Source: a virus. From it: DNA of 22,367 nucleotides. Under the pieces are notes generated by a model. It was given only the letters and a program-made list of their open reading frames with translations. It did no database searches and was not told the DNA's origin. Where the stretch lies: IMG/VR virus record IMGVR_UViG_3300020418_000043, positions 1 through 22,367 of that record; one strand, 5' to 3'. The translations under genes and the position numbers were made by a program. Of the stretch, positions 4,113 through 22,233 are shown piece after piece (positions within the stretch are counted from its first letter, which is position 1; the number at the start of each line of letters is the position of its first letter).

Positions 4113-4739
4113 ATGGATCTTTGGAAAAATTATAAAGCAACTGTTGCTGAGATTTTTCCAGATATAGAATTTGTTAAGCGACATGCTGAATGGACTAATA
4201 AGAAAGGTGTAAACCTAACTGCTGATTTGTACTCAGGTGAACATCTAATTAAGTCAAGACAAGTTGAAATCTGGGATGGTAAATCTTGCAGCATTCACAA
4301 TAATATAATATATCCTAGAACAGGATCTAATCTACCCTGTTTTGGTATGGATCTCATGGGAATGAGTGACAAACGAGTTGTTATTGTGTTTGATTTCCAA
4401 CATCCAGTAGAGAATTACTTGTTTTATACACCAGAATTACCTAAAGTAGAGGGTACATATAGATTCTTTGAAGCGGGTAATCATTTCTCTGACAATCTGG
4501 TTGTTAGATATTGTAAACCTGATGAAGTAGATGAATATCTACCTTTGTTTAAAAAGTACTTACAATTCTATAAGAATATGCTCAATGAGCATAAACCAAT
4601 TGGTACTGATACTACACAGTATGTTGATTTTGATAGATATATGATAAGACTTGATCCAATCTCTGGATATCTATCCAGTAGGTTTGGTAAAGACCAATCA
4701 CAAACACTAATCAAAGAATTCTTTTTCAGTTATGCCTAA
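4113..4739 (+). CDS. pebS: Phycoerythrobilin synthase PebS (ferredoxin-dependent bilin reductase)
   Basis: PebS is a phage enzyme that reduces biliverdin IXalpha in two two-electron steps, via 15,16-dihydrobiliverdin, to phycoerythrobilin, with ferredoxin as donor. The 208-residue protein resembles known PebS throughout (from memory of the family), with YPRTGSNLPCFGMDLM (about residues 67-82), IVFDFQHP and FSDNLVVRYCKPDEVD. The two aspartates described as catalytic in PebS (Asp105 and Asp206) correspond to Asp80 in FGMDLM and Asp181 in LDPISGY. The constant offset of 25 means the variable N-terminal extension is missing. It starts 2 nt after nrdB and ends 8 nt inside the next ORF. PebA, which makes only the first reduction, or PcyX are alternatives, but the second aspartate and the context favour PebS. 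A heme oxygenase, needed to make biliverdin, is not in the window. Confidence 0.88.
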   Translation: MDLWKNYKATVAEIFPDIEFVKRHAEWTNKKGVNLTADLYSGEHLIKSRQVEIWDGKSCSIHNNIIYPRTGSNLPCFGMDLMGMSDKRVVIVFDFQHPVENYLFYTPELPKVEGTYRFFEAGNHFSDNLVVRYCKPDEVDEYLPLFKKYLQFYKNMLNEHKPIGTDTTQYVDFDRYMIRLDPISGYLSSRFGKDQSQTLIKEFFFSYA

Positions 4740-8390: not shown

Positions 8391-8585
8391 GTTGGACGCA
8401 ACATGGGAGTGACTGAATAAACTTACTGGCAACCGCTAGTTAAGGTGATGGGTCAGAGGTGGTGCTCGCTGTCCGCAGGGGCAGAACTACTCAACCAAGT
8501 AGGACTCAGGCAACAACGTATTTACTACTGTAGTAATGCCCGTTGTTTGTTGGTATACAGGAATCCAACCTCCCTCTTTATTTTT
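8391..8585 (+). ncRNA. Hairpin-rich non-coding leader or small RNA (candidate)
   Basis: About 195 nt lie between the promoter at 8357-8384 and ATG 8586 with no convincing gene. Hairpins visible by eye: GTTG/CAAC with loop GACG at the predicted 5' end (8391-8402); CTGTCC/GGGCAG with loop GCAG (8469-8484), extended outside by GGTGGT/ACTACT across an internal loop (8458-8463 with 8486-8491); AACAACG/CGTTGTT (8512-8518 with 8541-8547), enclosing TTACTAC/GTAGTAA (8522-8536); and GTTGG/CCAAC (8549-8569), followed by a pyrimidine and T-rich stretch that resembles a weak terminator. It could be a 5' leader controlling the next gene, a riboswitch-like element, or a small RNA. It does not fold as a tRNA by eye and I could not match it to a known RNA class. 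Confidence 0.5.
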
Positions 8586-9032
8586 ATGGAAGAGATACAG
8601 GCATATAGATATCCTCATGCAGAGGACGTAAACCACATTCTCCACAGAATCATTTGTGATAATAGTGTTACCGAAGATAAGGGAGCATTGATGACTCAGT
8701 GGAATTGTTTTGATGTAGAAGAGTTTAATGTTATCGCAGACTATGCGAAGAGTTTAATTGACAGACCCACTAAGTTGGTAGATCTATGGGGTCAAGTGTA
8801 TCAGTATGGACACTACCAAAGTTATCACAATCATATTCATAATGATTGGGCATTCGTATACTACGTGAATACACCACACGGATCTTCACCTATTGTATTC
8901 AGAACAAGCAACAAAAGAATTAAACCTATAACTGGGATGTTGATATTATTTCCTGGTTATATGGATCATTATGTACCTCCTAATAAGGGAGAAGGAAGAA
9001 GTATCGTAGCGGGAAATTTAGTATACACATAA
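8586..9032 (+). CDS. 2OG-Fe(II) oxygenase-like protein
   Basis: A 148-residue protein fitting the phage-type putative 2OG-Fe(II) oxygenase family. It shows the double-stranded beta-helix landmarks: YHNHIHNDWAFVYYVN (metal-binding His region), GSSPIVF, then GMLILFPGYMDHYVPPNKG (distal His) and RSIVAGNL (the Arg that binds 2-oxoglutarate). Such enzymes hydroxylate proteins or small molecules; in T4-like cyanophages they sit among structural genes with unknown substrates. The frame is open upstream to ATG 8445, but that extension lies in the hairpin-rich leader and is unlike protein, so I chose ATG 8586 (MEEIQAYRYP). It has no ribosome site (upstream is TTTATTTTT). An in-frame ATG 8691 with GGGAG upstream would drop the N-terminal third. 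Confidence 0.8.
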   Translation: MEEIQAYRYPHAEDVNHILHRIICDNSVTEDKGALMTQWNCFDVEEFNVIADYAKSLIDRPTKLVDLWGQVYQYGHYQSYHNHIHNDWAFVYYVNTPHGSSPIVFRTSNKRIKPITGMLILFPGYMDHYVPPNKGEGRSIVAGNLVYT

Positions 9033-9072: not shown

Positions 9073-11172
9073 ATGTCAAAAATTCTTGCAAATGAAATTG
9101 CTAATTACGGTGATGACTCACCGATAGATCTGAAGGAGGGTCTGAATATCCCTGCTGGAAAACCAGTACAGGCAGCAGGATCGTCTGGTACTACAGGACA
9201 AGTCCTGTCTACTACAGGTACTACAGTGCAATGGGTAACACCATTTAGTGGAAGTTATACTGACTTATCTAATAGACCAACTATTCCTGCAGCACAGGTA
9301 AACTCTGATTGGAATGCTTCGAGTGGTGCTGCTGTTATCTTAAACAAACCAGTAGTTCCTCCTCAACCAAGTGTCACTACAGCATCTGCAGGAACTGCTG
9401 CTCTAGCATATAACAGTGGTAACGGAGAGTTTACATTTACTCCTCCAGATCTTTCATCATTTGCTACAGAGACATACGTAACTACTAGAGGATACTTAAC
9501 ATCATATACAGAAACTGATCCTGTATTCTCTGCATCTGCTGCATCAAATATAACTACTGCAAAAATTTCTAATTGGGATACATCATACAGTTGGGGTAAT
9601 CATGCTTCTGTAGGATACTTAACTCTGGAGTCTGATACTCTACAGACAGTTATTAACAGAGGTAATACCAGCACAAGTCCAGCATACTTTACAGCAAAAT
9701 TACAATACAGTAACGCATTTGTAGCAGCAGATATTACTTCATCTCTTGCTACAACTTATGATGGTTTCTTTTTAAAGAATAGTACTGATGGTAATGCATA
9801 CTATTCACATAACACTGCATGGAAAAAATTATTAAATGAAGATGCACTTCTTGATAATCTATCCAATGTAGATCTATCTGTTGCACCTCAGAATGGTCAA
9901 GTTCTTAAATGGGATTCTGCTACATCAAGATGGAAAGCAGCAAATGATTTAACAGGTGGTGGTGGAGGAGGTCTTTCACTAACAGATCTTTCTGTTCAAT
10001 CATCAACAGCATCAGGAGGAGGTTCTCTTGTATACAATAATGGTAGTGGTGTATTTACATATACTCCACCAGATCTTAGTAGTTTCATAACATCAATAGG
10101 AGATGCTATTCGTGATGCTGACTTCACAACTAATGGCATAATGAAAAGATCTGGTGCTGGAGTTTATACATCCATCACAGATAATAGTGCTAATTGGGAT
10201 ACAGCATTTGGATGGGGTAACCACGCATCACAAGGATATCTAACACAACTTCCTGTTCATGGACTAGGAGTTCATACTGGTGTAACTCTTACCAATGAAA
10301 CAGCAGGAGACTTGTTACAATATAGTGGTACACAATGGGTTAACTGGACACCAAACTATCTTACAGCAGAAACAGATACATTACAATCTGTAATTACTAG
10401 AAATGGTACAGTAACATCAGGAAACCCTGCGTTCAATACAAGTACTTTCTTCACAGGAACTGGAACAGGTGCAGGAAATGGTGGCAAACCATATTTCTTA
10501 TGGGATGCAGCTAATAATCAATTGGTAGGTTCTGATAATATAGAAATAGTATTAGGATTTAATGGTGATCAAAAAATTAAAACTGATGGTACAAATGTAC
10601 TCTACAATAATTTTGCAAATGTATTACATACTATTGAAAATTCTGGAGAAAGGGAAGCATGGAACAGTAAAGTTAGTGGAGTCTTTGTACCATCATTTAA
10701 AATTAATCATAACGCTGCTGTAGAATTATATCATGCGAATGGACAAATAAGATTAGCAACTTCTTCAACAGGTGTCACCGTAACAGGTGCATTGACTGCG
10801 GGTGGTTTGACCTATCCAACAGTTAATGGTACAAATGGTCAGGTCTTGACTAGTGATGGAGCTGGTAACGTAGCATGGGGAGCTGGCGGTGGAGGTGGTG
10901 CTAGTGTAACTATAAGTGACACACCTCCAGCAGCATCTGCTGGTGATCTATGGTGGGAAAGTGACAGTGGACGTCTAAAAATTTACTATCAAGATGTTGA
11001 TAGTGCACAGTGGGTTGATGTAGCACCACCTCTTGCACCAGCGTTATCCTCAAACGCTCCTGCTACTGCTAGTTCTACTGGTAGTGCGGGTGATATTAGA
11101 TATGATTCTGGTTATGTTTATGTCTGTGTTGCGACTGATACTTGGAAGAGAGCAGCACTAACAACTTGGTAA
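9073..11172 (+). CDS. Modular tail-fibre-like structural protein
   Basis: A 699-residue protein rich in Ser, Thr, Gly and Asn, built of short beta-type modules typical of T4-like cyanophage fibres. Repeated units are YNSGNGEFTFTPPDLSSF (about 114-130) and its copy at about 322-338; NWDTSYSWGNHASVGYLT (about 167-184) and NWDTAFGWGNHASQGYLT (about 374-391); and ESDTLQTVI/ETDTLQSVI. A poly-Gly linker occurs at about 297-302. Near the C-terminus there is a block (GGLTYPTVNGTNGQVLTSDG) that recurs almost unchanged in the next gene, then SAGDLWWESDSGRLKIYY. There is no signal peptide; such proteins assemble into the virion. A late-type box precedes it. Start chosen at ATG 9073 (MSKILANEI), directly after the inverted repeat. 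The exact fibre role is unknown. Confidence 0.8.
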   Translation: MSKILANEIANYGDDSPIDLKEGLNIPAGKPVQAAGSSGTTGQVLSTTGTTVQWVTPFSGSYTDLSNRPTIPAAQVNSDWNASSGAAVILNKPVVPPQPSVTTASAGTAALAYNSGNGEFTFTPPDLSSFATETYVTTRGYLTSYTETDPVFSASAASNITTAKISNWDTSYSWGNHASVGYLTLESDTLQTVINRGNTSTSPAYFTAKLQYSNAFVAADITSSLATTYDGFFLKNSTDGNAYYSHNTAWKKLLNEDALLDNLSNVDLSVAPQNGQVLKWDSATSRWKAANDLTGGGGGGLSLTDLSVQSSTASGGGSLVYNNGSGVFTYTPPDLSSFITSIGDAIRDADFTTNGIMKRSGAGVYTSITDNSANWDTAFGWGNHASQGYLTQLPVHGLGVHTGVTLTNETAGDLLQYSGTQWVNWTPNYLTAETDTLQSVITRNGTVTSGNPAFNTSTFFTGTGTGAGNGGKPYFLWDAANNQLVGSDNIEIVLGFNGDQKIKTDGTNVLYNNFANVLHTIENSGEREAWNSKVSGVFVPSFKINHNAAVELYHANGQIRLATSSTGVTVTGALTAGGLTYPTVNGTNGQVLTSDGAGNVAWGAGGGGGASVTISDTPPAASAGDLWWESDSGRLKIYYQDVDSAQWVDVAPPLAPALSSNAPATASSTGSAGDIRYDSGYVYVCVATDTWKRAALTTW
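9382..9462 (+). repeat. Fibre module TPPDLSSF, copy 1
   Basis: Encodes an AxxYNSGxGxFTFTPPDLSSF-type unit. Related copies lie at 10009-10086 (same gene) and 11363-11443 (next gene), each followed within a few dozen residues or further on by a SDTLxxV/IxxR unit. Divergent at DNA level, so this is old module duplication. Confidence 0.65.
9571..9624 (+). repeat. Fibre module WGNHAS-GYLT, copy 1
   Basis: 54 nt encoding NWDTSYSWGNHASVGYLT; the second copy at 10192-10245 has the same length and encodes NWDTAFGWGNHASQGYLT. Confidence 0.8.
10009..10086 (+). repeat. Fibre module TPPDLSSF, copy 2
   Basis: Second copy of the unit at 9382-9462, here ending TYTPPDLSSF. Confidence 0.65.
10192..10245 (+). 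repeat. Fibre module WGNHAS-GYLT, copy 2
   Basis: Second copy of the 54-nt unit at 9571-9624 within the same fibre gene. Confidence 0.8.
10771..10880 (+). repeat. 110-nt fibre module shared by two adjacent genes, copy 1
   Basis: Encodes a unit containing LTAGGLTYP and NGQVLTSDGAGNVAWG. The copy at 11717-11826 in the next gene has the same length and is clearly similar in DNA, including identical CAGGTCTTGAC. Confidence 0.85.
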
Positions 11173-11203: not shown

Positions 11204-12205
11204 ATGGCAATTAATTTTCCTGCAACAGCAGGGCAAGCAACTGATGGTACTTTTACATACACGGTAGCAGGGATAACATACGCATGGAACGGATCATCGT
11301 GGGCAGCTGCTGGTGCTGGTGCTAGTGCTACTAATAGATCATTGTTTAGTGTGACAACAAACTCTCCATCTGGTGGTGGAGCATTAAGTTATGATCAGAA
11401 CAGTGGAGCATTTTCATATACTCCTCCAGTTCTAAGTGGATTTCTTACAGCAGAGTCAGATACACTAGCAACAATAACTGCAAGAGGTGCAAGCACTGCT
11501 AATCAAACAACTTTTACTGGTGGTGTAGAAGCAAACGTCCTTAATCTTACTACTAATGGAATAAACCTTACTTCAACTAATGATATAGGAGTTTCTGCAA
11601 CAGGTTTATATATTAATAACACATCTAACAACTCAACTATTGCAAGTTTTCAGTTCAATACTGGATGTCAATTAAGAGACACAAATGGTGTCGTTAGATT
11701 ATACACACAAACAACTGGTGCAACCATTGATGGTACATTGACTGCTGGTGGACTTTCTTATCCAACAACCAACGGGACTAGCGGACAGGTCTTGACGAGT
11801 GATGGCACAGGAAATGTAACATGGGGAAGTCCTGCAGGATCAAGAAGCACTGTACCTGTTACAGTTAACATCGCAAACGAAGCTGTATCTAACACATCAT
11901 TTACAACTCCTAAAACATATGTTCTTATAAAAGTATCAACATCTCATGCTGCATGGGTAACACTATACAGTGATACTGCTAGTAGAACTTCTGACGCATC
12001 AAGACAAATAAATGTAGATCCTTTACCAGGTTCTGGTGTTTTATCTGAGGTAATTACTACTGGTAACCAAGTACAATTAATTACACCTGGCACAATATGT
12101 TTTAACTCTGCTGGCACAGGAACCACATATGCAAAGATAGTTAATAAATCAGGATCAACAGCAAATATAACAGTGACACTTACATACGTTGTATTGGAGA
12201 GTTAA
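11204..12205 (+). CDS. Tail-fibre-like structural protein, related to the preceding gene
   Basis: A 333-residue modular protein. The N-terminal unit (FPATAGQATDGTFTYTVAG, YAWNGSSW) is a small beta module common in phage fibres. It is followed by a copy of the TPPDLSSF-type unit (TPPVLSGFLTAESDTLATIT, about 74-95) and the shared 110-nt module (about 172-208). The remainder, about 215-333, is a different beta-rich domain with many Thr and Val (WVTLYSDTASRTSDASRQIN, VQLITPGTICFNSAGTG), probably the distal tip or a trimerisation unit. It has an AAGGAG ribosome site. It appears to be a shortened relative of the 699-residue protein with a new C-terminus. Its stop is 1 nt before the next ATG. Confidence 0.8.
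   Translation: MAINFPATAGQATDGTFTYTVAGITYAWNGSSWAAAGAGASATNRSLFSVTTNSPSGGGALSYDQNSGAFSYTPPVLSGFLTAESDTLATITARGASTANQTTFTGGVEANVLNLTTNGINLTSTNDIGVSATGLYINNTSNNSTIASFQFNTGCQLRDTNGVVRLYTQTTGATIDGTLTAGGLSYPTTNGTSGQVLTSDGTGNVTWGSPAGSRSTVPVTVNIANEAVSNTSFTTPKTYVLIKVSTSHAAWVTLYSDTASRTSDASRQINVDPLPGSGVLSEVITTGNQVQLITPGTICFNSAGTGTTYAKIVNKSGSTANITVTLTYVVLES
11363..11443 (+). repeat. Fibre module TPPDLSSF, copy 3
   Basis: Third member of the unit seen at 9382 and 10009, here ending SYTPPVLSGF. Confidence 0.6.
11717..11826 (+). repeat. 110-nt fibre module shared by two adjacent genes, copy 2
   Basis: Encodes a unit containing LTAGGLSYP and SGQVLTSDGTGNVTWG; pairs with 10771-10880. Confidence 0.85.
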
Positions 12206-12206
12206 T

Positions 12207-15200
12207 ATGTCAGAAAAAATCTATGTTGTCACCCTTCATAATAAGGAAGACTTGGAAGGATTTTATGATGATATGAAGGACAACGGGTTTCGTTTAAACT
12301 TGAAACGTCCTATCAGTAGAAACACACACTACTGGATGACAGATGAACAAGCAGAAGAATTAAAACAAGATCCTAGAGTATGGGATGTAGACTTACGTCC
12401 AGAAGATAAAGGAATATATCCTAAAAAATGTGCAACATCAAAGGACGAAGTATTTTTTAGAAATCTTGAAGGAACTTTTTGGAAAGATGGAGGCATCAGT
12501 ACTGCTAATGATTTTCCATGGGGTCTATCACATACTGCAGATTCTGTAGGTGTGCATAGAGGCAAGGGACAATTTGGATCTAGTGGAGGAACTTATAATC
12601 AACATCCTGCACAAATTGTAAGTGATATGTATGAAGGTGCATGGGGTGATGGCAGACATGTAGACATAGTTGTTTGTGATGATCCTGTATCTTCTGGTTG
12701 TGCTGAGTGGATGGGATTTCAAGAGACTAGATTTGTTCCATATCAATGGTTCAATGAATTGAATACTGAGGTAGCATCTATAGATGATGATGGTCAGACT
12801 CTACCCACTGGAAATGTAACTTACCATACTAATGCAACCAATCCTGAGTATCATGGAACTCATGTTGCTGGAACTTGTGCAGGACAATACTATGGACTTG
12901 CAAACGAAGCAAATATATATGCACTACAAATTCTAGGCACAATGCCTTCTGGTCAAACTCTACCCACATTATTATTGTATGATTATCTCAGAGCATTTCA
13001 TAGAAAGAAACCTATTAATCCTGTAACTGGATACAAGAATCCTACAATATCAAATCATAGTTGGGGGTATAGCACAGAGACATCTTTAGAAGCAGAATTT
13101 CCTGCTGGTATTGCAATTGGAAATGTTGTAGAAGTAAACTATCAAGGTGTACAATATAATTCTAGTAATCCTAATCCTAGTGGTTGGACAATGGCAGGAT
13201 TAGAAACAGACTTTGGTATTGCTCCTAACAAATGGAGTATCCCTGTCACACTTACATCTGTCAATGCTGATGTAGAAGATGCTATCGAGGATGGTATAGT
13301 TATTGTTTGTGCTGCTGGTAATGATAACTTTCATGTTGTGCCACAAGGAGATGCAAATTATAATAACTTTGTTATCTTCCAAGGATATAATAGCAATGCT
13401 CCAATCTATTTTAATAGAGGTATGTCTCCTGCCAGTGCACCAAATGCAATCATGGTAGGATCATTAGGTAGTGATGCTGCATTCAAGAGATCAACTTTCA
13501 CAAACTTCGGTCCTAGAATAGATGTGTTTGCACCTGGTAGTAATATTTTATCTGCATGGGGAAACCCTGCTGTTATCACAGGACCTAGTGCAGGAGCAGG
13601 GTTTGTTGATTCAAAATATCCTGGCGGTGGAAACTGGATATGGCCTATAAGTGGAACCAGTATGGCATCACCACTGATTGCTAGTGTTGCAGCAATGGTT
13701 GCTAGTGCTAGGAGGACGGATAGATTTAGTAATGATGATCTTCGTGCATACTTGAATAACAATAGTATCTTTGGTGACATGACCTTTGATGTTAGTGGAG
13801 GACAGTTTGATGATAATTCATGTAGGAAAGATAGTCCTAACAAATATTTGGTAACAACAAATCCTAGAAAATCAAATGGTAATTTACAGAGTAAAGTAGG
13901 AGATAGAAGAAGTGGTGCAGTATTTCCTAGACCTAAAAAATTACATGCTGCTAATGGATTTCCTAGTGGTATATTATCTACCGCTTCACAGTTGGCAATA
14001 ACAAAGGAGTGGAAGGCATTAATACCAACACCTCCTTGGAAAGATCCAGCAACACAAGGATTGTTTCAATATACTTCTGAGTTATACATTCCTACTAACG
14101 AAGCAGGACCTACAGGATACCCTGTAATGATTTGTTTACATGGTAATGGAGGATCTGGAACTACTATTAATGATCCAATTTATTCTACATTAGGAGATCA
14201 TATTAGAGTAGGTCCTAATGGTTTCTTTAACAGTTGGAATATAGTTGACGAGAATAGTACTGCTCCTGACATAGAATACTTGAGAAATCTTATTAAATTA
14301 TTGAAGACATTTACAAATGTAGACAGTACAAGAATTAGAATTTCTGGTATATCTAATGGTGCAGCACTAGCATGTAGAGCATTTGTTGAGATAGATGATC
14401 CTGCTGTTGATTTAATTATTCCTATTGTATCTCAGTTTCATATAAATGAGGTAAATAATTTTACACAGTTCTTTGAACCAACAGATCATTTGAATACTAA
14501 TGGTACTCTAGCAGATTATGGATATAGTAATCAAAAAGTTCCTGCTACTGGTAGAAAAATATTGATGATGCAGAATACTAATGATAATGTCATACCTTAT
14601 AATGGTGGCGGTGGTGTTGGTATTCAATTTATAGGTGCTAGACTATGCACATATCGTATGGCACAAGCTATGGGATGGGTAGGAGGAGAACAGAATACTG
14701 GACTAACATATCAAGGAGACGCAGCAACACAACTTTATCGTTATAATATTAATGGAAATGCAAATGAGGTAGTTCATTGTGCAAGTAATGGTGGACATGG
14801 AATCAATGCAAAGATGATTACTTTGTTTGAGGAATGGGTTGAGAGTGATGGTCAGACAATTACAGTTACAGCACCATCTAATACATATAATATAACTGTC
14901 CTAGCATTTAGTAATGTTAACTATACACTTAATGGAAATGATAGGAATGGATTGGTGAGTGGTAATGATCCTACAGTTACTGTACAGGCAGGAGACACAA
15001 TTAATTTCAATGTCAATGCTGGAGGACATCCTTTCTATATTAAGACAGTTTATGTTGGTGGTACTTCTAATCAAGTAACAACAGGAACCATAACTGGAAC
15101 ACAGGGATTGACTAACGGTACAATATCTTGGAACACAACAGGTGTATCAGCAGGGACATATTATTATGTTTGTTCTCCACATGCATTTCTTGGTATGGGT

Positions 15201-15221
15201 GGATCAATTGTTGTCACATAA
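12207..15221 (+). CDS. Subtilisin-like protease + alpha/beta-hydrolase + plastocyanin-like copper domain
   Basis: A 1004-residue protein with at least three functional domains. Residues about 5-64 resemble a subtilisin propeptide (inhibitor I9-like). Residues about 150-510 form an S8 protease with a full catalytic set: Asp158 in VVCDDP, His216 in YHGTHVAGT, oxyanion Asn372 in AAGNDN and Ser485 in SGTSMASP. Residues about 605-880 resemble a polyhydroxybutyrate-depolymerase/esterase-type hydrolase: HGNGGSG (645-651), Ser716 in GISNGA, Asp793 in NTNDNVIPY and His864 in GGHGIN. Residues about 884-1004 resemble a cupredoxin, with His941 in GGHPFYIKT and CSPHAFLGM giving Cys989, His992 and Met997, the plastocyanin ligand spacing. 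Start ATG 12207 has GGAGAG upstream; the frame stays open a few codons further but into the previous gene. There is no signal peptide. It lies within the fibre cassette, so it is probably a virion-bound enzyme that attacks the cell surface or processes fibre proteins (inference). Confidence 0.88.
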   Translation: MSEKIYVVTLHNKEDLEGFYDDMKDNGFRLNLKRPISRNTHYWMTDEQAEELKQDPRVWDVDLRPEDKGIYPKKCATSKDEVFFRNLEGTFWKDGGISTANDFPWGLSHTADSVGVHRGKGQFGSSGGTYNQHPAQIVSDMYEGAWGDGRHVDIVVCDDPVSSGCAEWMGFQETRFVPYQWFNELNTEVASIDDDGQTLPTGNVTYHTNATNPEYHGTHVAGTCAGQYYGLANEANIYALQILGTMPSGQTLPTLLLYDYLRAFHRKKPINPVTGYKNPTISNHSWGYSTETSLEAEFPAGIAIGNVVEVNYQGVQYNSSNPNPSGWTMAGLETDFGIAPNKWSIPVTLTSVNADVEDAIEDGIVIVCAAGNDNFHVVPQGDANYNNFVIFQGYNSNAPIYFNRGMSPASAPNAIMVGSLGSDAAFKRSTFTNFGPRIDVFAPGSNILSAWGNPAVITGPSAGAGFVDSKYPGGGNWIWPISGTSMASPLIASVAAMVASARRTDRFSNDDLRAYLNNNSIFGDMTFDVSGGQFDDNSCRKDSPNKYLVTTNPRKSNGNLQSKVGDRRSGAVFPRPKKLHAANGFPSGILSTASQLAITKEWKALIPTPPWKDPATQGLFQYTSELYIPTNEAGPTGYPVMICLHGNGGSGTTINDPIYSTLGDHIRVGPNGFFNSWNIVDENSTAPDIEYLRNLIKLLKTFTNVDSTRIRISGISNGAALACRAFVEIDDPAVDLIIPIVSQFHINEVNNFTQFFEPTDHLNTNGTLADYGYSNQKVPATGRKILMMQNTNDNVIPYNGGGGVGIQFIGARLCTYRMAQAMGWVGGEQNTGLTYQGDAATQLYRYNINGNANEVVHCASNGGHGINAKMITLFEEWVESDGQTITVTAPSNTYNITVLAFSNVNYTLNGNDRNGLVSGNDPTVTVQAGDTINFNVNAGGHPFYIKTVYVGGTSNQVTTGTITGTQGLTNGTISWNTTGVSAGTYYYVCSPHAFLGMGGSIVVT

Positions 15222-15255: not shown

Positions 15256-18200
15256 ATGGCAGATCGTTTTCCGTTAATAGTAAATGCGGTTTCTCAAAAA
15301 ATTGAGGAACTGATTTCTGGTGACAATTTAGAATTGTCTGGTAATAATATAATCATCAGTGGTGACACAGGTGCAGGAAAATACCTGACCAGTAATGGTA
15401 GTGTTGTTTCTTGGGGAACGCCTGGTGATGTTTATCTAACACAAAACCAAACATTAGAAAATAAAACATTTACATCATGCATCATTTCTGGATCTGCTAA
15501 TACTCTCTCTAACATACCAAACGCTGCTCTTTCAAACTCTACAATACAAGTAAATGGTGCTGCTATTGCTCTAGGTGGATCCGTTGTAACACCAAATGAT
15601 AACACCACTTACTCTGTGAGTGCACAAGATGGTATCAATAACAATACAAAAGTTATTAGACTAACTGCTGGTGGATCAGGAACTGGTGATGATGATGTTA
15701 GTATTGCTGTAGGTCCTCCTGCTGCTGTTCCTGCTGGATCTAATGCTCTTGCTCTAGCAATTAATAGAGTTGGTGAAGTTATTACAATATCTGGTACAGC
15801 ACCTGATGCTGACACCATAACAACAGTAAAGTCTGGAACTGGTGGTACAGCACAGACTGGAGATATTACAATTGCTGCGACTGGATCCTCTACAGTATCT
15901 CAGGACGTAGCATCTAAAACAATTACGATCAACTCAACTTATGTTGACACGATCACAAAGATGAGAGCAACTACAGGACAAGTATTAAATCCTGGTAACT
16001 TTACATTCTTATCTGGTGGTGCTACTACTGTTGCTCAAGGTGTAGATGGTAATGGTGACTCAACAATTACATATACATCTGTTGACACAATCACAAGAGC
16101 AAAAGGTGGAGCAGCTGGATCGTTTGTAACTGGTGATGTTGAGTTTACTGGTGGAGCAAACGTCACAGTATCACAAGCGGGTAACACAATCAGTATTGCT
16201 AGTGTAGACACAAACACAGTAACTAGACTTTCATCTGGTGCTAACGTTGTGACTGCAGGAGACTTTAAGTTTGTAGGAACTGGTGCTACTAGCATTTCAC
16301 AAGCGACTGCTGGTGGTGTAACAACATTCACAGTCACATCTCAGAACGATGATACTGGTGCAGCGTTGACAGCATCTGCTGGTATTTTATTATCAGGAAC
16401 AGATTTTCAGTTAAAAAATGCTGGTAACTTTTCTGGTAATCAATTATTAAAGTGGGACTCTGGTAACAGTCAGATAGGAAATAGTTTGATTTCTGATAAC
16501 GGGTCTACTGTTACAATTTCTGGTGATTTAGTTGTTGATGGTACACAAACTGTTCTTAATACACAAACACTTATTGTAGAAGACAATAGTATTGAACTAA
16601 GAAAAGGAAATAATTTAGTTGGAAATGATGGTGGTTTACAGGTAAACTTAGAAACAGATGGTGGTGGATCTGTCACAAAATATCAATCATTACAATGGTA
16701 TAATTCTGGTGGATACTGGAGAGGATGGGATGGTTCTGTTGAGAGAAGGTTTGTTACAGAGTCAGAGACACAGATTCTTACTAACAAAACTCTTACATCT
16801 CCAACACTTACCTCACCTAACATTGGTGCTGCTGTTGCGACATCAGTTAATGGTCTTATCGTTAGTACAACTGCCTCTGCAACTCTAGACATTGCAACAT
16901 CTAAAATATTAGATGTAAATGATTCTCTAACATTAACATCAGATAACCCTGCTGCAACTGTTGCTGTTAACTTCAGAGTTGGTGGAGACGTAGCATATAG
17001 ATCTGATACTCTTGCATCATTCTCATCTACCACATCTACACAGATGCGTGGTTTGATTACAGATACAACAGGATTAGATAAGTTAGTATTCCAAACTAAC
17101 CCTACAATTTTAACTGGTATTACTACAACATCTGCAGGATTTAATTTAGTTAATACTGGTGCTACAAGTATATTATTTGGTGGTGCTGCAGGAAGCATTG
17201 TCATGGGTGCTTCTACTGGTACTACAACAATCAACCATGACTTAGAAGTTATCGAGGATATCACATGTGGTGTTGATACAAACGATACTGCTACATTCAA
17301 TGGTATTGTCAATATTGAAAATGCAGACTTAGTAATTCGTGGAACATCTAATGACCCAATACAAGTTGGTAGAGGTGGTGGTGCTGTAAGCACAAACACT
17401 CGTGTGGGTACATCAGCACTTGCTGCAAACACTTCTGGATCTCAGAACACAGCATTTGGATACCAAGCATTGTTCACAAATAATATCGGTGCATCCAATA
17501 CTGCAATTGGACACAGGGTTTTGAGGGCAGCGGGTGTCGCAAATAACAACATTGGTATTGGTAAAGATGCATTACTTGTTACACTTTCTGGTAGTAAGAA
17601 CCTTGCGATTGGTAACAATGCAATGGAAACAAACCAGACTGGTAGTGGAAACGTCTGTATTGGACACTATGCTGGTTTCGATGTACAAGGTAATAACAAC
17701 GTTCTCATAGGTCCTGCATACAATGAGACTTCTGCTGATGTAACATTCAGACCTCCAAATATTAGTGGAGATAATCAACTTGTTATTGGTTCTGGTGGAC
17801 AAGCATGGATACGTGGTGACAATAGTTACAATGTTAGTCTTAGTCAAGATCTTACCGTAGATGGAGATACACTTATCAAAGGTGATCTTGTAGTCAATGG
17901 TACTACAACCACAGTTAAATCTAATATTGTACAGATTACAGACAAAGCAATTGAACTTGCTGCTGTTGTAAGTACACAGTTTACATGTACTGCTGTATCT
18001 GGATCTAGCAATATCACAGCGATTGCTCCTACATTAGGACTGATACCTGGCATGGAAGTTACATCAAACACTGCTGGTATTACAGTTCCTGCTGGAACAA
18101 TCATTGTAAGTATTACAAATGACACAGCGGTATTGAGTAACAACGTAACAGGATCTGGTACACCTACATTCAGTGCGATAGGTCCTTCCGATACTGCTGC

Positions 18201-18951
18201 AGAAGACGGTGGTATTATTGTTAAGGGTACAACCGATAAGACATTCTTATGGAGAGGAACCGATGGTGGTGTATCATATAACTCTTGGTTGTCTTCAGAA
18301 CATATGGATCTTGCAACTGGTAAGAACTATTATGTCAATGGTATTCTAATTGCTAGTGATACAAGTAAAGTTATCGGACCTACAAATGGTGGTGGTCAAG
18401 GACAAACAACTTCTCCTTACACACTCGGTAGTGCTGTTACAGGATCATCATTGACATCTCTTGGAACTCTTACTACATTACAAGTTGGTGGTGATATAAC
18501 CATGAGCAAATCTGGAGTAGGAGTTGCGTTATTTAGATCTACAGATGATGATATGCGTGTCAGAATTAGATCAGTTGATGGCAAATTTAGTCAATTAGAA
18601 TTTGCTGATACTGATGCAGATGCTGGTGAGATCAGATATGGTCATGCTGGTGGCACTATAACATCTGATTTTATGGCATTCCATGTTGGTAGTAATACAG
18701 AGCAACTTCGTATAGAATCTAATGGTAATGTATTACCAGCAGGAGATAACACACAAGATTTTGGATCAAGTACTAAGAGATGGGCAAACGTATATACTGG
18801 TGACATGCACTTAAATAATATGAATACTGGTGGTAATGAAGTGGACGGATCTGAAGGTCACTGGACTATGCAAGAAGGTGCTGATGATCTCTTCTTAATC
18901 AATAGAAATACTGGTAAAAAGTATAAGTTCAATCTTACAGAGGTATCATAA
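15256..18951 (+). CDS. Large tail-fibre protein with repeat arrays
   Basis: A 1231-residue fibre-like protein. N-terminal LTSNGSVVSWGTP and LTQNQTLENKTFTSCIISG units are typical of T4-like cyanophage fibres. Residues about 186-364 contain four tandem imperfect repeats, each opening with DTIT or DTNT and containing a GDF/GDV strand and an S-or-A-QxxxxxxTI strand. Two copies of GDLVVDGTQTVL/GDLVVNGTTTTV with ...ELR/ELA follow, about 453 residues apart. Residues about 716-822 form a YadA-head-like array (NTAFGYQAL, NTAIGH, NNIGIGKDAL, NLAIGNNAM, NVCIGHYAG, NNVLIG). The C-terminal part, with LRIESNGNVLPAGDNTQDFG and KRWANVYTGDMHLN, resembles the end region of other phage fibres. It was probably made as a trimer. 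The ribosome site is weak (GGTAG). The stop overlaps the next start in TAATG. Confidence 0.85.
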   Translation: MADRFPLIVNAVSQKIEELISGDNLELSGNNIIISGDTGAGKYLTSNGSVVSWGTPGDVYLTQNQTLENKTFTSCIISGSANTLSNIPNAALSNSTIQVNGAAIALGGSVVTPNDNTTYSVSAQDGINNNTKVIRLTAGGSGTGDDDVSIAVGPPAAVPAGSNALALAINRVGEVITISGTAPDADTITTVKSGTGGTAQTGDITIAATGSSTVSQDVASKTITINSTYVDTITKMRATTGQVLNPGNFTFLSGGATTVAQGVDGNGDSTITYTSVDTITRAKGGAAGSFVTGDVEFTGGANVTVSQAGNTISIASVDTNTVTRLSSGANVVTAGDFKFVGTGATSISQATAGGVTTFTVTSQNDDTGAALTASAGILLSGTDFQLKNAGNFSGNQLLKWDSGNSQIGNSLISDNGSTVTISGDLVVDGTQTVLNTQTLIVEDNSIELRKGNNLVGNDGGLQVNLETDGGGSVTKYQSLQWYNSGGYWRGWDGSVERRFVTESETQILTNKTLTSPTLTSPNIGAAVATSVNGLIVSTTASATLDIATSKILDVNDSLTLTSDNPAATVAVNFRVGGDVAYRSDTLASFSSTTSTQMRGLITDTTGLDKLVFQTNPTILTGITTTSAGFNLVNTGATSILFGGAAGSIVMGASTGTTTINHDLEVIEDITCGVDTNDTATFNGIVNIENADLVIRGTSNDPIQVGRGGGAVSTNTRVGTSALAANTSGSQNTAFGYQALFTNNIGASNTAIGHRVLRAAGVANNNIGIGKDALLVTLSGSKNLAIGNNAMETNQTGSGNVCIGHYAGFDVQGNNNVLIGPAYNETSADVTFRPPNISGDNQLVIGSGGQAWIRGDNSYNVSLSQDLTVDGDTLIKGDLVVNGTTTTVKSNIVQITDKAIELAAVVSTQFTCTAVSGSSNITAIAPTLGLIPGMEVTSNTAGITVPAGTIIVSITNDTAVLSNNVTGSGTPTFSAIGPSDTAAEDGGIIVKGTTDKTFLWRGTDGGVSYNSWLSSEHMDLATGKNYYVNGILIASDTSKVIGPTNGGGQGQTTSPYTLGSAVTGSSLTSLGTLTTLQVGGDITMSKSGVGVALFRSTDDDMRVRIRSVDGKFSQLEFADTDADAGEIRYGHAGGTITSDFMAFHVGSNTEQLRIESNGNVLPAGDNTQDFGSSTKRWANVYTGDMHLNNMNTGGNEVDGSEGHWTMQEGADDLFLINRNTGKKYKFNLTEVS
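15811..16347 (+). repeat. Four tandem imperfect fibre repeats, about 41-47 residues each
   Basis: Units begin at 15811, 15946, 16084 and 16207, each at a D-T-I-T or D-T-N-T motif, with spacing 135, 138, 123 and about 141 nt. They look like beta-repeats of a fibre shaft and have diverged strongly in DNA. Confidence 0.65.
17400..17720 (+). repeat. YadA-head-like repeat array
   Basis: Encodes six or so short units of the form N-x-A/I/V-x-I/F-G-x-x-A, about 14-20 residues apart, as in left-handed beta-roll heads of trimeric autotransporter adhesins and in some phage fibres. Confidence 0.7.
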
Positions 18952-19892: not shown

Positions 19893-21533
19893 ATGCCAGT
19901 TATAGTTGGAGATGGTACAGGTGCAGGAGTAGAAGGAAAATCAGATAGAATAGGTATTCCGACAGGATCTTCTGATCCAACTTCAGCAGAAGTCGGTGAT
20001 TTATATTTCAACATTCCAAATAGCACATTAAAAATATACAATGGTGTTGGTTGGGAAGATCTTGGAGCTGGTACTATCGCACCAAACGGTAGTAGTTCAT
20101 TTCCAGCAGTATCTGCTGCCCAATTATTATCAGATTATCCAAACTTAAATTCTGGTGTTTATTATTTACAAACTAGTGGAGGTAGTGTACAAGTTTATTG
20201 TGAAATGGAGAGAATGGGTGGTGGTTGGGTTATCCCCTTCCAACATCAATGTGTAAATGATCAGGGATTATATGAGACATTATTTACTAATGCTCCTTCT
20301 GGCACTCCAAACTCTGGTTCATCTGACTTCCAAGGAGCAGGATCTCTCACTGGTTCACAACTCTGGGATAATTATGTTGGTTCTAGTTCAGAAGCTATGG
20401 TATACGCCAGAGAAATTCAAACTGCTGGTGGATCATATGATGAGACACATGCATATGTTAGTAGCAATGGTGGAACCATTTTTAGTAAAGCAAATTTTCA
20501 AGACTTACTTAATCCTGTACCAGGAAATGGTGGTTATGAATCTGGTATTACAGTTCTTTATAGAAATGGTTCAAGAAAAGTAGATCTAAAACAGCAAACC
20601 GTGTGGTCTTCTCCATCATTAGTTACCATTAACAATGGTGCAGTAGACCAAGAACTATATTATTGTAATGGTCAAGATGGTGGTGATTCCAACTGGTCAT
20701 TTGCTTTGATGCGAGGTGGCACACCATATCCTCGTTTAGCAAACACTGCTAATGGTGGTGGTCGTCACAATGGTGTTACACGTTGGGGTCAGTTAGGATT
20801 CCGTGCTGCTTCTGTTAGTGTTCCAGTTGATCCTTTTGGTGACATGTCAGGAGTTGGATACTTCCCATTGACTAATACTTTTACTAATAAGTCAGTTGGA
20901 TATACACAATATAATGGCACTAATACTGCTGGAACTTATACAGCAGAGGGTATTACATGGGCAAGTGTAGGAGCACATGGATTCCGAATCCCAAAACCAG
21001 GTGAAGTATCTATTGGTGAGTGGTTCCAAGGAAACCAAGACTGGGCAATTTCTATGGTCTTTAAGATGGCTGCTAATCCAGGCACTGCAACAAATAGAGC
21101 ACTGATACATATGGCTAACGGTGATGACCATGCTAGACCAGCATTTTGGGTTACTGGACCTAACAGAGGTGCAGGAGTTGCAAACAAAATGGAATGGTTT
21201 AGTAGTAGTAATGGATCTTCTTGGGACATTGCGAGAGGAGATACTAATGCTTCTGGTCTCGGATCTGCCACTATTGCTGCTGATACCAAGTATCATGTTG
21301 TGTTTACTCGTAGTGGTTCTAGTGGATTAAAAGGATATGTAAATAAAACTCTTGATTGGAGTGATAGCAATACAGCATCTCACTATGCCTCTGGAGATTA
21401 TGAAATTAATATTGGAGCTTGGTTTAACTACCTCAGCAATTATGGATGGCATGGATCTATTAAGAATGTAAGATTCTTTAGGAAAAATTTATCTTCAGCA
21501 GAGGTTAATCAATTATATACACTAGACTTTTAA
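19893..21533 (+). CDS. Fibrinogen-like plus LamG/concanavalin-like adhesin
   Basis: A 546-residue protein in three parts. Residues about 15-58 are the module shared with the preceding protein (SDRIGIPTGSSDPTSAEVGD, KIYNGVGWEDL). Residues about 68-310 resemble a fibrinogen C-terminal domain: FPAVSAAQLLSDYP, SGVYYLQTSGGSVQVYCEME and the GGGWVIPFQ turn, with a later Asn/Gly-rich region (GGGRHNGVTRWGQLGFRAAS). Residues about 320-546 resemble a LamG/concanavalin-type lectin: WAISMVFKM, KYHVVFTRSGSSGLKGYVN, IGAWFNYLSNYGWHGSIKNV and the closing RFFRKNLSSAEVNQLY. Both folds bind sugars or proteins in other systems, so a receptor-binding role is likely (inference). It is preceded by a perfect AGGAGG. 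Confidence 0.82.
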   Translation: MPVIVGDGTGAGVEGKSDRIGIPTGSSDPTSAEVGDLYFNIPNSTLKIYNGVGWEDLGAGTIAPNGSSSFPAVSAAQLLSDYPNLNSGVYYLQTSGGSVQVYCEMERMGGGWVIPFQHQCVNDQGLYETLFTNAPSGTPNSGSSDFQGAGSLTGSQLWDNYVGSSSEAMVYAREIQTAGGSYDETHAYVSSNGGTIFSKANFQDLLNPVPGNGGYESGITVLYRNGSRKVDLKQQTVWSSPSLVTINNGAVDQELYYCNGQDGGDSNWSFALMRGGTPYPRLANTANGGGRHNGVTRWGQLGFRAASVSVPVDPFGDMSGVGYFPLTNTFTNKSVGYTQYNGTNTAGTYTAEGITWASVGAHGFRIPKPGEVSIGEWFQGNQDWAISMVFKMAANPGTATNRALIHMANGDDHARPAFWVTGPNRGAGVANKMEWFSSSNGSSWDIARGDTNASGLGSATIAADTKYHVVFTRSGSSGLKGYVNKTLDWSDSNTASHYASGDYEINIGAWFNYLSNYGWHGSIKNVRFFRKNLSSAEVNQLYTLDF

Positions 21534-21621: not shown

Positions 21622-22233
21622 ATGATAGAATCGAGACCGATAGTCCCCCAGAATGATGGGTGGTTGGAAGTTCGTGTACCCAAAAACATCATGGATGATC
21701 TGTGGGGCATGATAGACACTGCAGGAAGAGATGCTAAGTTTAAACTAGCAGGAAATATCAGTGCAAGTAAGGAGATGAGTCCGACTGATACTTTCAAAAA
21801 ATTTATTGGTGATGTAACAAAAGAATACGGAGAGCATTTCAAATACAAAGCAAGTGAAATGATAACCATGATACCAGAAGGATCATCAATTCAATTGAAT
21901 GATCTATGGGTCAACTGGCAGTATCAACATGAGTTCAATCCATCTCATGTACACTTTGGTTTGTATTCATTTGTTATATGGATGAAGATGCCAGTAGAAA
22001 CTACAGATCAAATGCAATTACCCATAGCAAAATCTACAAGTTCATGTCTATCATGTTTTCAGTTTGAATACTTTAATACATTTGGACAGAAAAGACTTTT
22101 CAATTATCCTATGGGCAAAGAGATAGAAGGTCTGATGGTATTCTTTCCAGCAGTAATGAACCATTTAGTATATCCTTTCTATGATTCAACTGAACCTAGA
22201 ATCTCTGTCGCAGGGAACATGGCGTGGATGTGA
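21622..22233 (+). CDS. 2OG-Fe(II) oxygenase-like protein, second type
   Basis: A 203-residue protein with the same fold signature as the gene at 8586 but a different sequence. Residues 113-140 hold LNDLWVNWQYQHEFNPSHVHFG, which places a His pair (HVH) where the usual family has HxD. The later block GLMVFFPAVMNHLVYPFYDS holds the distal His, and RISVAGN the 2-oxoglutarate-binding Arg. Between them lies a Cys-containing insert (SSCLSCF). Related proteins are common beside structural genes of T4-like cyanophages; the substrate is unknown. The start is ATG 21622 (MIESRPIVPQ), with no clear ribosome site but 3 nt after a small ORF. The stop overlaps a late-type box. Confidence 0.78.
   Translation: MIESRPIVPQNDGWLEVRVPKNIMDDLWGMIDTAGRDAKFKLAGNISASKEMSPTDTFKKFIGDVTKEYGEHFKYKASEMITMIPEGSSIQLNDLWVNWQYQHEFNPSHVHFGLYSFVIWMKMPVETTDQMQLPIAKSTSSCLSCFQFEYFNTFGQKRLFNYPMGKEIEGLMVFFPAVMNHLVYPFYDSTEPRISVAGNMAWM

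Follow-up and report, generated by a model that had tools for sequence, protein, structure and literature searches.

A predicted type-1 copper domain at the C-terminus of a cyanophage-like protease-esterase and of tail-fibre connectors in related viruses

The stretch of DNA analysed here, referred to below as the window, is a whole IMG/VR virus record of 22,367 bases that bears the marks of a marine T4-like cyanophage and encodes a ribonucleotide reductase small subunit (phrog_86 match). An auxiliary pigment gene at 4113-4739 encodes a ferredoxin-dependent bilin reductase (PF05996, 56.8 bits), and two 2OG-Fe(II) oxygenase-like proteins (8445-9032 and 21622-22233, by Pfam) flank the tail-gene block. 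The protein encoded at 19893-21533 has a Laminin_G_3 lectin domain (Pfam), and its N-terminal part may, judging by a motif alone, be a fibrinogen-type domain. The present study concerns a 1,004-residue protein read from an ATG at 12207, whose features and neighbours are the following:

9073..11172, + strand, tail fibre protein, context (phrog_9729)
11204..12205, + strand, upstream neighbour (phrog_9627/15343)
12207..15221, + strand, open reading frame of the 1,004-residue protein, with an N-terminal beta-alpha-beta-beta-alpha-beta stretch, an S8 subtilase, an alpha/beta hydrolase and a C-terminal cupredoxin
12819..13766, + strand, peptidase S8 domain, residues 205-520 (PF00082, 92.4 bits, cut-off 21.8)
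13974..14861, + strand, alpha/beta hydrolase, residues ~590-885 (phrog_2576, E 5.7e-62)
14883..15218, + strand, cupredoxin domain, residues 893-1004 approximately (Pfam, model, fold matches, ligand alignment)
15027..15029, + strand, codon of predicted copper ligand His941 (alignment with plastocyanin and relatives)
15171..15173, + strand, codon of predicted copper ligand Cys989 (same alignment)
15180..15182, + strand, codon of predicted copper ligand His992 (same alignment)
15195..15197, + strand, codon of predicted axial copper ligand Met997 (same alignment)
15256..18951, + strand, virion structural protein, context (phrog_6002, E 0)

The 1,004-residue protein matches phrog_9158 over residues 2-1003. 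Its gene has tail-type genes before it and a virion structural gene after it (PHROG matches), and a similar gene order surrounds its relatives in S-CAM4, ACG-2014i, ACG-2014e and S-H9-1; in two related loci (L088 and L098) the counterpart of the upstream neighbour itself has a cupredoxin copy. From this gene context, and from the parallel with the gp9 connectors described below, we infer that the protein is part of the virion, which remains unconfirmed.

Two enzyme domains precede the cupredoxin. The criterion for a peptidase S8, a Pfam score above the cut-off with the catalytic His and Ser present, is met, and His216 and Ser485 are invariant across 18 aligned sequences (alignment A3). The alpha/beta hydrolase, which has a GISNG motif (Ser716) and His864, is like the short-chain polyhydroxyalkanoate (PHA) depolymerases and esterases, its score with NF050058 (38.4 bits) lying under the cut-off of 150. 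Situated between protease and cupredoxin, it occurs in relatives of about 1,000 residues and is missing from those of about 690, from which we conclude that domains have been shuffled onto a common S8 core. Comparison of the window with one relative (L002) gives a dS of 0.14 for the cupredoxin (14850-15218) and 0.36 for the protease part (12207-13946), an inequality that suggests, on these sequences, recombination inside the gene. The full-length model is poor (pLDDT 62), too poor for placing domains. The beta-alpha-beta-beta-alpha-beta pattern it gives for residues 1-70 is suggestive of an I9-type propeptide, but a Pfam search gave no significant match there; the N-terminus shows no signal peptide.

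The initial annotation had placed a plastocyanin-like copper site at positions 14856-15218, a range that begins slightly early, in the linker behind the hydrolase: the fold itself spans about 14883-15218. The motifs on which it relied, GGHPFYIKT at 15021 and CSPHAFLGM at 15171, are present, and its numbering of the ligands (H941, C989, H992, M997) is correct, counting from the ATG at 12207. The Pfam Copper-bind family (PF00127) is matched with 28.3 bits in the whole protein and 33.8 in the domain alone, above a cut-off of 21.2, and 13 of the 16 members of sequence set A1 match it at E <= 0.01. The domain model (AlphaFold2, from an alignment of 78 sequences) reaches a pLDDT of 95.4, and type-1 copper proteins head its matches in the PDB: Foldseek returns rusticyanin first (E 9.5e-6), with copper nitrite reductase and plastocyanin high and a probability of 1.00 to rusticyanin and plastocyanin, and VIA gives the N-terminal cupredoxin of Hyphomicrobium nitrite reductase (2dv6; Z 10.7, 94 residues, rmsd 2.0 Å) and rusticyanin (2cal; Z 10.0, 98 residues, rmsd 2.4 Å). 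By model confidence and both fold searches the criterion for a Greek-key beta-sandwich cupredoxin fold is met. In a separate fold search against viral models, the domain also matched a Fadolivirus "Blue type 1 copper protein" and, in metagenomic genomes of Marseillevirus and Pithovirus, small "beta-sandwich" proteins.

In the family profile, the columns of H941, C989, H992 and M997 align with the four ligand residues of plastocyanin. A single-sequence search had left the first His offset by two residues, because the family reads H-P-F where plastocyanin reads H-N, an offset that the larger profile resolves. Fold and alignment would thus put the ligands where plastocyanin has them, with the proviso that inter-ligand distances in the model were not measured. 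Plastocyanin-like is an apt description as far as these four ligands go, but the domain is not a plastocyanin, scoring 35.7 bits against a cut-off of 87.85, and a captured PetE auxiliary gene is excluded by a score so far under that cut-off. Chance occurrence of the motif is likewise excluded, by the Pfam score, the fold and conservation in sets chosen blind to the domain. There is strong evidence that the protein ends in a true cupredoxin, a type-1 copper domain, with its ligand set intact, in the absence of any copper-binding data; that it binds copper is likely, zinc or an empty site not being excluded, and that it does so outside the cell is probable.

Retention of the ligands was followed in several samples of relatives. 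The wider viral and cellular scans were seeded with a pattern that holds the Cys and the second His and are therefore biased for both residues, for which reason sets blind to the domain were also assembled. One of these, selected by the protease part, comprises the best 80 loci, with 75 distinct proteins, 73 of them with a stop codon. A cupredoxin domain is present in 60 of the 73 and absent from 13, where it must be dispensable. At least one full H-C-H-M set is kept in 58 of the 60, the domain being truncated in one exception (L227) and diverged in the other (L250). The refuting condition named at the outset, loss of ligands in close homologues, was looked for and is not fulfilled, either here or in the gp9 connectors, where 67 of 67 complete copies keep H-C-H-M. 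Counted by copy, the protease set has 80 complete domains, with four ligands in 67, three in 1, one in 2 and none in 10, whereas independent loss would predict full sets in about 42 copies and complete absence in 0.04. Loss is nearly all-or-none, and the copies that have lost ligands look mutually related, so their losses cannot be counted as separate events; wherever a protein in this set has degenerate tandem copies, it retains one intact copy as well. Mean column identity over the domain is 0.65, many non-ligand columns being variable. The C-x2-H-x4-M spacing that had been likened to plastocyanin is present (CSPHAFLGM) but peculiar to the clade of the window: among the 67 H-C-H-M copies the second gap is x4 in 4, x2 in 62 and x3 in 1, so that most relatives read C-x2-H-x2-M. 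For the domain, dN is lower than dS against all seven relatives tested, the Prochlorococcus protein included, and codon-level comparison strongly indicates purifying constraint.

From 42 matching phage records (of 50,697), 16 loci were taken, and 21 of their 23 domain matches have H-C-H-M, the other two being partial matches in S-CAM1. The seeded scans found the full set in 122 of 203 viral and 78 of 85 cellular domain matches. Most viral losses fall in tail proteins of great length, about 2,000 or 3,200 residues, with several copies each; the persistence of ligand-less copies there implies that the fold can serve without metal. Degenerate tandem copies, which the viral scan and the protease set both contain, read ESNV, YCYY, HSAM and others at the ligand positions. 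In the giant phage proteins of ~3,200 residues (L063 2059-11805, L054, L074 and others alike) the cupredoxin-type domain is repeated several times; some of the repeats have a full ligand set and others no ligand at all, at positions that recur. Outside the cyanophages, Actinomycetia phage DSL-LC01 (L014 4026-5411) encodes a domain with all ligands in a 462-residue frame that adjoins collagen-like genes. The rows of alignment A2 were picked for H-C-H-M, and its ligand invariance is not counted as evidence; a further alignment, filtered by a C..H pattern and hence circular in its Cys and His columns, was not used.

The same domain turns up in the gp9 connectors. The window domain matched PHROG 677, annotated as "baseplate wedge tail fiber protein connector"; the domain of a related phage protein matches 331 of 50,697 phage records, and that of S-SM1 gp9 matches 332, most among the matches listed being annotated as the gp9 connector. 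All four ligands are found in 12 of the 13 regions fetched, the exception being a tail fibre of S-B05. A second set blind to the domain, selected by the gp9 N-terminus, comprises the best 80 loci, with 79 distinct frames, of which 71 have a stop codon and 8 more, left out of the count, run off the contig. The domain closes 67 of the 71 complete frames and is absent from 4, and each of the 67 copies has H-C-H-M. These copies sit at the extreme C-terminus, behind an N-terminus that matches T4 gp9/10: the N-terminal domain PF07880 scores above its cut-off of 25 in S-SM1 and P-SSM3 gp9 (39.1 and 45.6 bits), S-SM1 gp9 matches T4 gp9 (PDB 1pdp) over residues 4-61, and for the longer protein of P-TIM68 the Pfam search gave no PF07880 match. 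In T4, the C-terminal part of gp9 holds the long tail fibre. As far as sequence alone can tell, hundreds of related viruses have a tail-fibre connector that ends in this domain. A virion proteome of S-SM1 found 41 proteins (PMC3037559), the presence of gp9 among them being unconfirmed.

Beyond phages, the seeded cellular scan, from which the best 80 of 100 relatives were kept, gave by title two Prochlorococcus sequences, two Euryarchaeota metagenome-assembled genomes and otherwise marine Bacteroidota; the two euryarchaeal loci, L130 and L166, could be of phage origin and are not treated as archaeal hosts. Among the 78 cellular H-C-H-M copies, 63 end within 5 residues of the end of the reading frame and 25 lie in frames under 200 residues. 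Several large cellular relatives carry Ig-like, InlB-repeat or DUF285 domains, the cupredoxin standing behind Ig-like or InlB-repeat surface domains, and the domain is thus present on surface proteins of marine Bacteroidota. The closest non-phage sequences found, within the same best 80 of 100, are from Prochlorococcus, a host genus, which encodes the domain as a protein of its own:

L102 3947-4351, L103 3947-4351 and L278 7224-7628, stand-alone Prochlorococcus cupredoxin-like protein, distinct from plastocyanin

This 134-residue protein, which begins with a signal-peptide-like stretch as judged by eye, is matched at E < 1e-30 in 60 of 266 genomes of the genus, an upper figure for intact genes because it includes broken or partial copies in three genomes (G167, G161 and G080); a contig (C1 of G016) that looks like phage DNA in a host assembly was not counted as a host gene. 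The ligands are kept in all five copies read (twelve loci, L266-L277, scanned on the forward strand only), and one copy has ordinary-looking genes around it on a contig of 1.66 Mb. A tRNA suspected beside the gene in L102 was not found by ARAGORN. Many other matches in the genus, near E 1e-6 and about 36%, look like PetE, and one (G001, L265) reads as a 116-residue plastocyanin-like protein. In a tree of 165 domain copies both Prochlorococcus sequences used fall inside the clade of the window (100/92), and the window and Prochlorococcus domains differ by a dN of 0.27 and a dS of 0.93; the tree rests on few columns, leaves out the gp9 copies and does not show the direction of transfer. One small extracellular module is thus common to phages, their Prochlorococcus hosts and marine Bacteroidota.

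The reading that we favour, tentatively and at a little less than an even chance, is that this is an extracellular type-1 copper module which marine T4-like phages use as a terminal docking domain on tail proteins, both the docking and the copper being inferred. A marine extracellular module would have been fused by T4-like cyanophages to baseplate and fibre-region proteins; the apo-protein, lacking an N-terminal signal peptide, would be made in the cytoplasm and built into the particle, and copper would be taken up on lysis or from seawater, its binding stiffening the small beta-sandwich into a terminal piece for docking. The cupredoxin of gp9 would lie at the fibre end of the baseplate connector, and that of the window protein may tether the protease-esterase either to the virus particle or to the host surface on which the enzymes work. 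Its computed basis is the fold, the four-ligand alignment with plastocyanin, retention in the blind sets and the sharing with gp9, Bacteroidota and Prochlorococcus. Against docking stand the persistence of ligand-less copies, the dispensability of the domain in 13 of 73 protease relatives, the lack of copper-binding data and an unidentified docking partner.

Retention of the whole ligand set, Met included, in all 67 complete gp9 copies (best 80 loci), together with nearest folds that are electron-transfer or redox copper proteins, would suit a redox role, in which Cu(II)/Cu(I) cycling at the host surface acts as a switch on fibre deployment or on the enzymes, or hands electrons to a partner. 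We consider this unlikely: no redox partner is seen, marine Bacteroidota have the same domain on surface proteins, and structural copper need not cycle. A bolder version, to which we give very little credence, has a working type-1 centre at the baseplate/tail-fibre joint (gp9), with spare copies on accessory tail enzymes, whose copper redox state, set by light or by redox at the photosynthetic cell surface, governs fibre deployment and so underlies the light-dependent adsorption reported for several cyanomyoviruses. That the cupredoxin is merely an Ig-like brick, its ligands inherited without use, is compatible with the degenerate tandem copies (ESNV, YCYY, HSAM and others) but hard to square with the variability of many other columns when the ligands persist in 67 of 67 gp9 and 58 of 60 protease-linked proteins, and we hold it to be very doubtful.

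The Prochlorococcus gene invites another thought, that the domain mimics the secreted host cupredoxin and binds whatever partner that protein naturally has on the cell. The nesting of both Prochlorococcus tree sequences in the window's clade (100/92) and the stand-alone gene in 60 of 266 genomes (E < 1e-30) speak for it; with the direction of transfer not shown, the partner unknown, and gp9 copies more divergent and absent from the tree, it remains improbable. The copper of cupredoxins is usually buried and tightly held, which counts against its serving as a lure for host copper-uptake receptors, as does the fact that no such receptor has been identified in the host. The precedent for this "Trojan horse" is the proposed iron-bearing phage tail, tail-fibre iron sites and the idea itself being in print (PMC11705849), and the closeness of sequences from a host genus (best 80 of 100) would fit; the chance that it applies here seems slim indeed. 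Whether docking, a redox or light switch, or a metal lure, any role is inferred, the switch and the lure both staying in play as rivals to docking.

Singly, cupredoxins, phage proteases and metal-bearing tails are all known. The open-licence PMC literature (subscription papers and preprints lying outside that scope) yielded no account of a phage virion with a cupredoxin, and the copper case in PMC8115048 is a viral NirK gene, not a virion part. What appears to be new, within those open-licence papers, is that T4-like phages have a type-1 copper site conserved in their connector and in accessory enzymes, such that related viruses may bear copper where they take hold of the host. Should copper prove to be bound, the tail connector of a widespread group of ocean viruses would include a metalloprotein; copper, chelators, redox and light would become controls in adsorption studies; viruses would count among the copper ligands of the sea; and there would be a testable candidate for why cyanophage adsorption depends on light.

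Set beside known systems, the domain shares with plastocyanin (TIGR02656, PF00127) the cupredoxin fold and the H/C/H/M ligands and, in the window's clade, the C-x2-H-x4-M spacing as well, yet neither the window protein (30.6 bits) nor the domain alone (35.7) meets the TIGR02656 cut-off of 87.85. Plastocyanin alignments show His-Asn where the ligand His of the window domain precedes Pro-Phe, and, unlike plastocyanin, the domain has no signal peptide and is the C-terminal part of a 1,004-residue multidomain protein. Its best fold matches, the N-terminal cupredoxin of Hyphomicrobium nitrite reductase and rusticyanin, are respectively an enzyme domain and a periplasmic electron carrier, with identities of 24 and 30% (VIA). 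T4 gp9, the connector between baseplate wedge and long tail fibre, resembles cyanophage gp9 at the N-terminus (PF07880, 1pdp), but the S-SM1 match stops at residue 61 (PDB) or 96 (PF07880), and the cyanophage protein ends in a cupredoxin. Also comparable are the iron-binding HxH tail fibres of phage R22Y and T4 gp37 (PMC11705849), phage tail proteins whose metal site has been proposed to act in adsorption; there paired histidines serve for iron, whereas the window domain has a predicted four-ligand type-1 copper site in a distinct fold.
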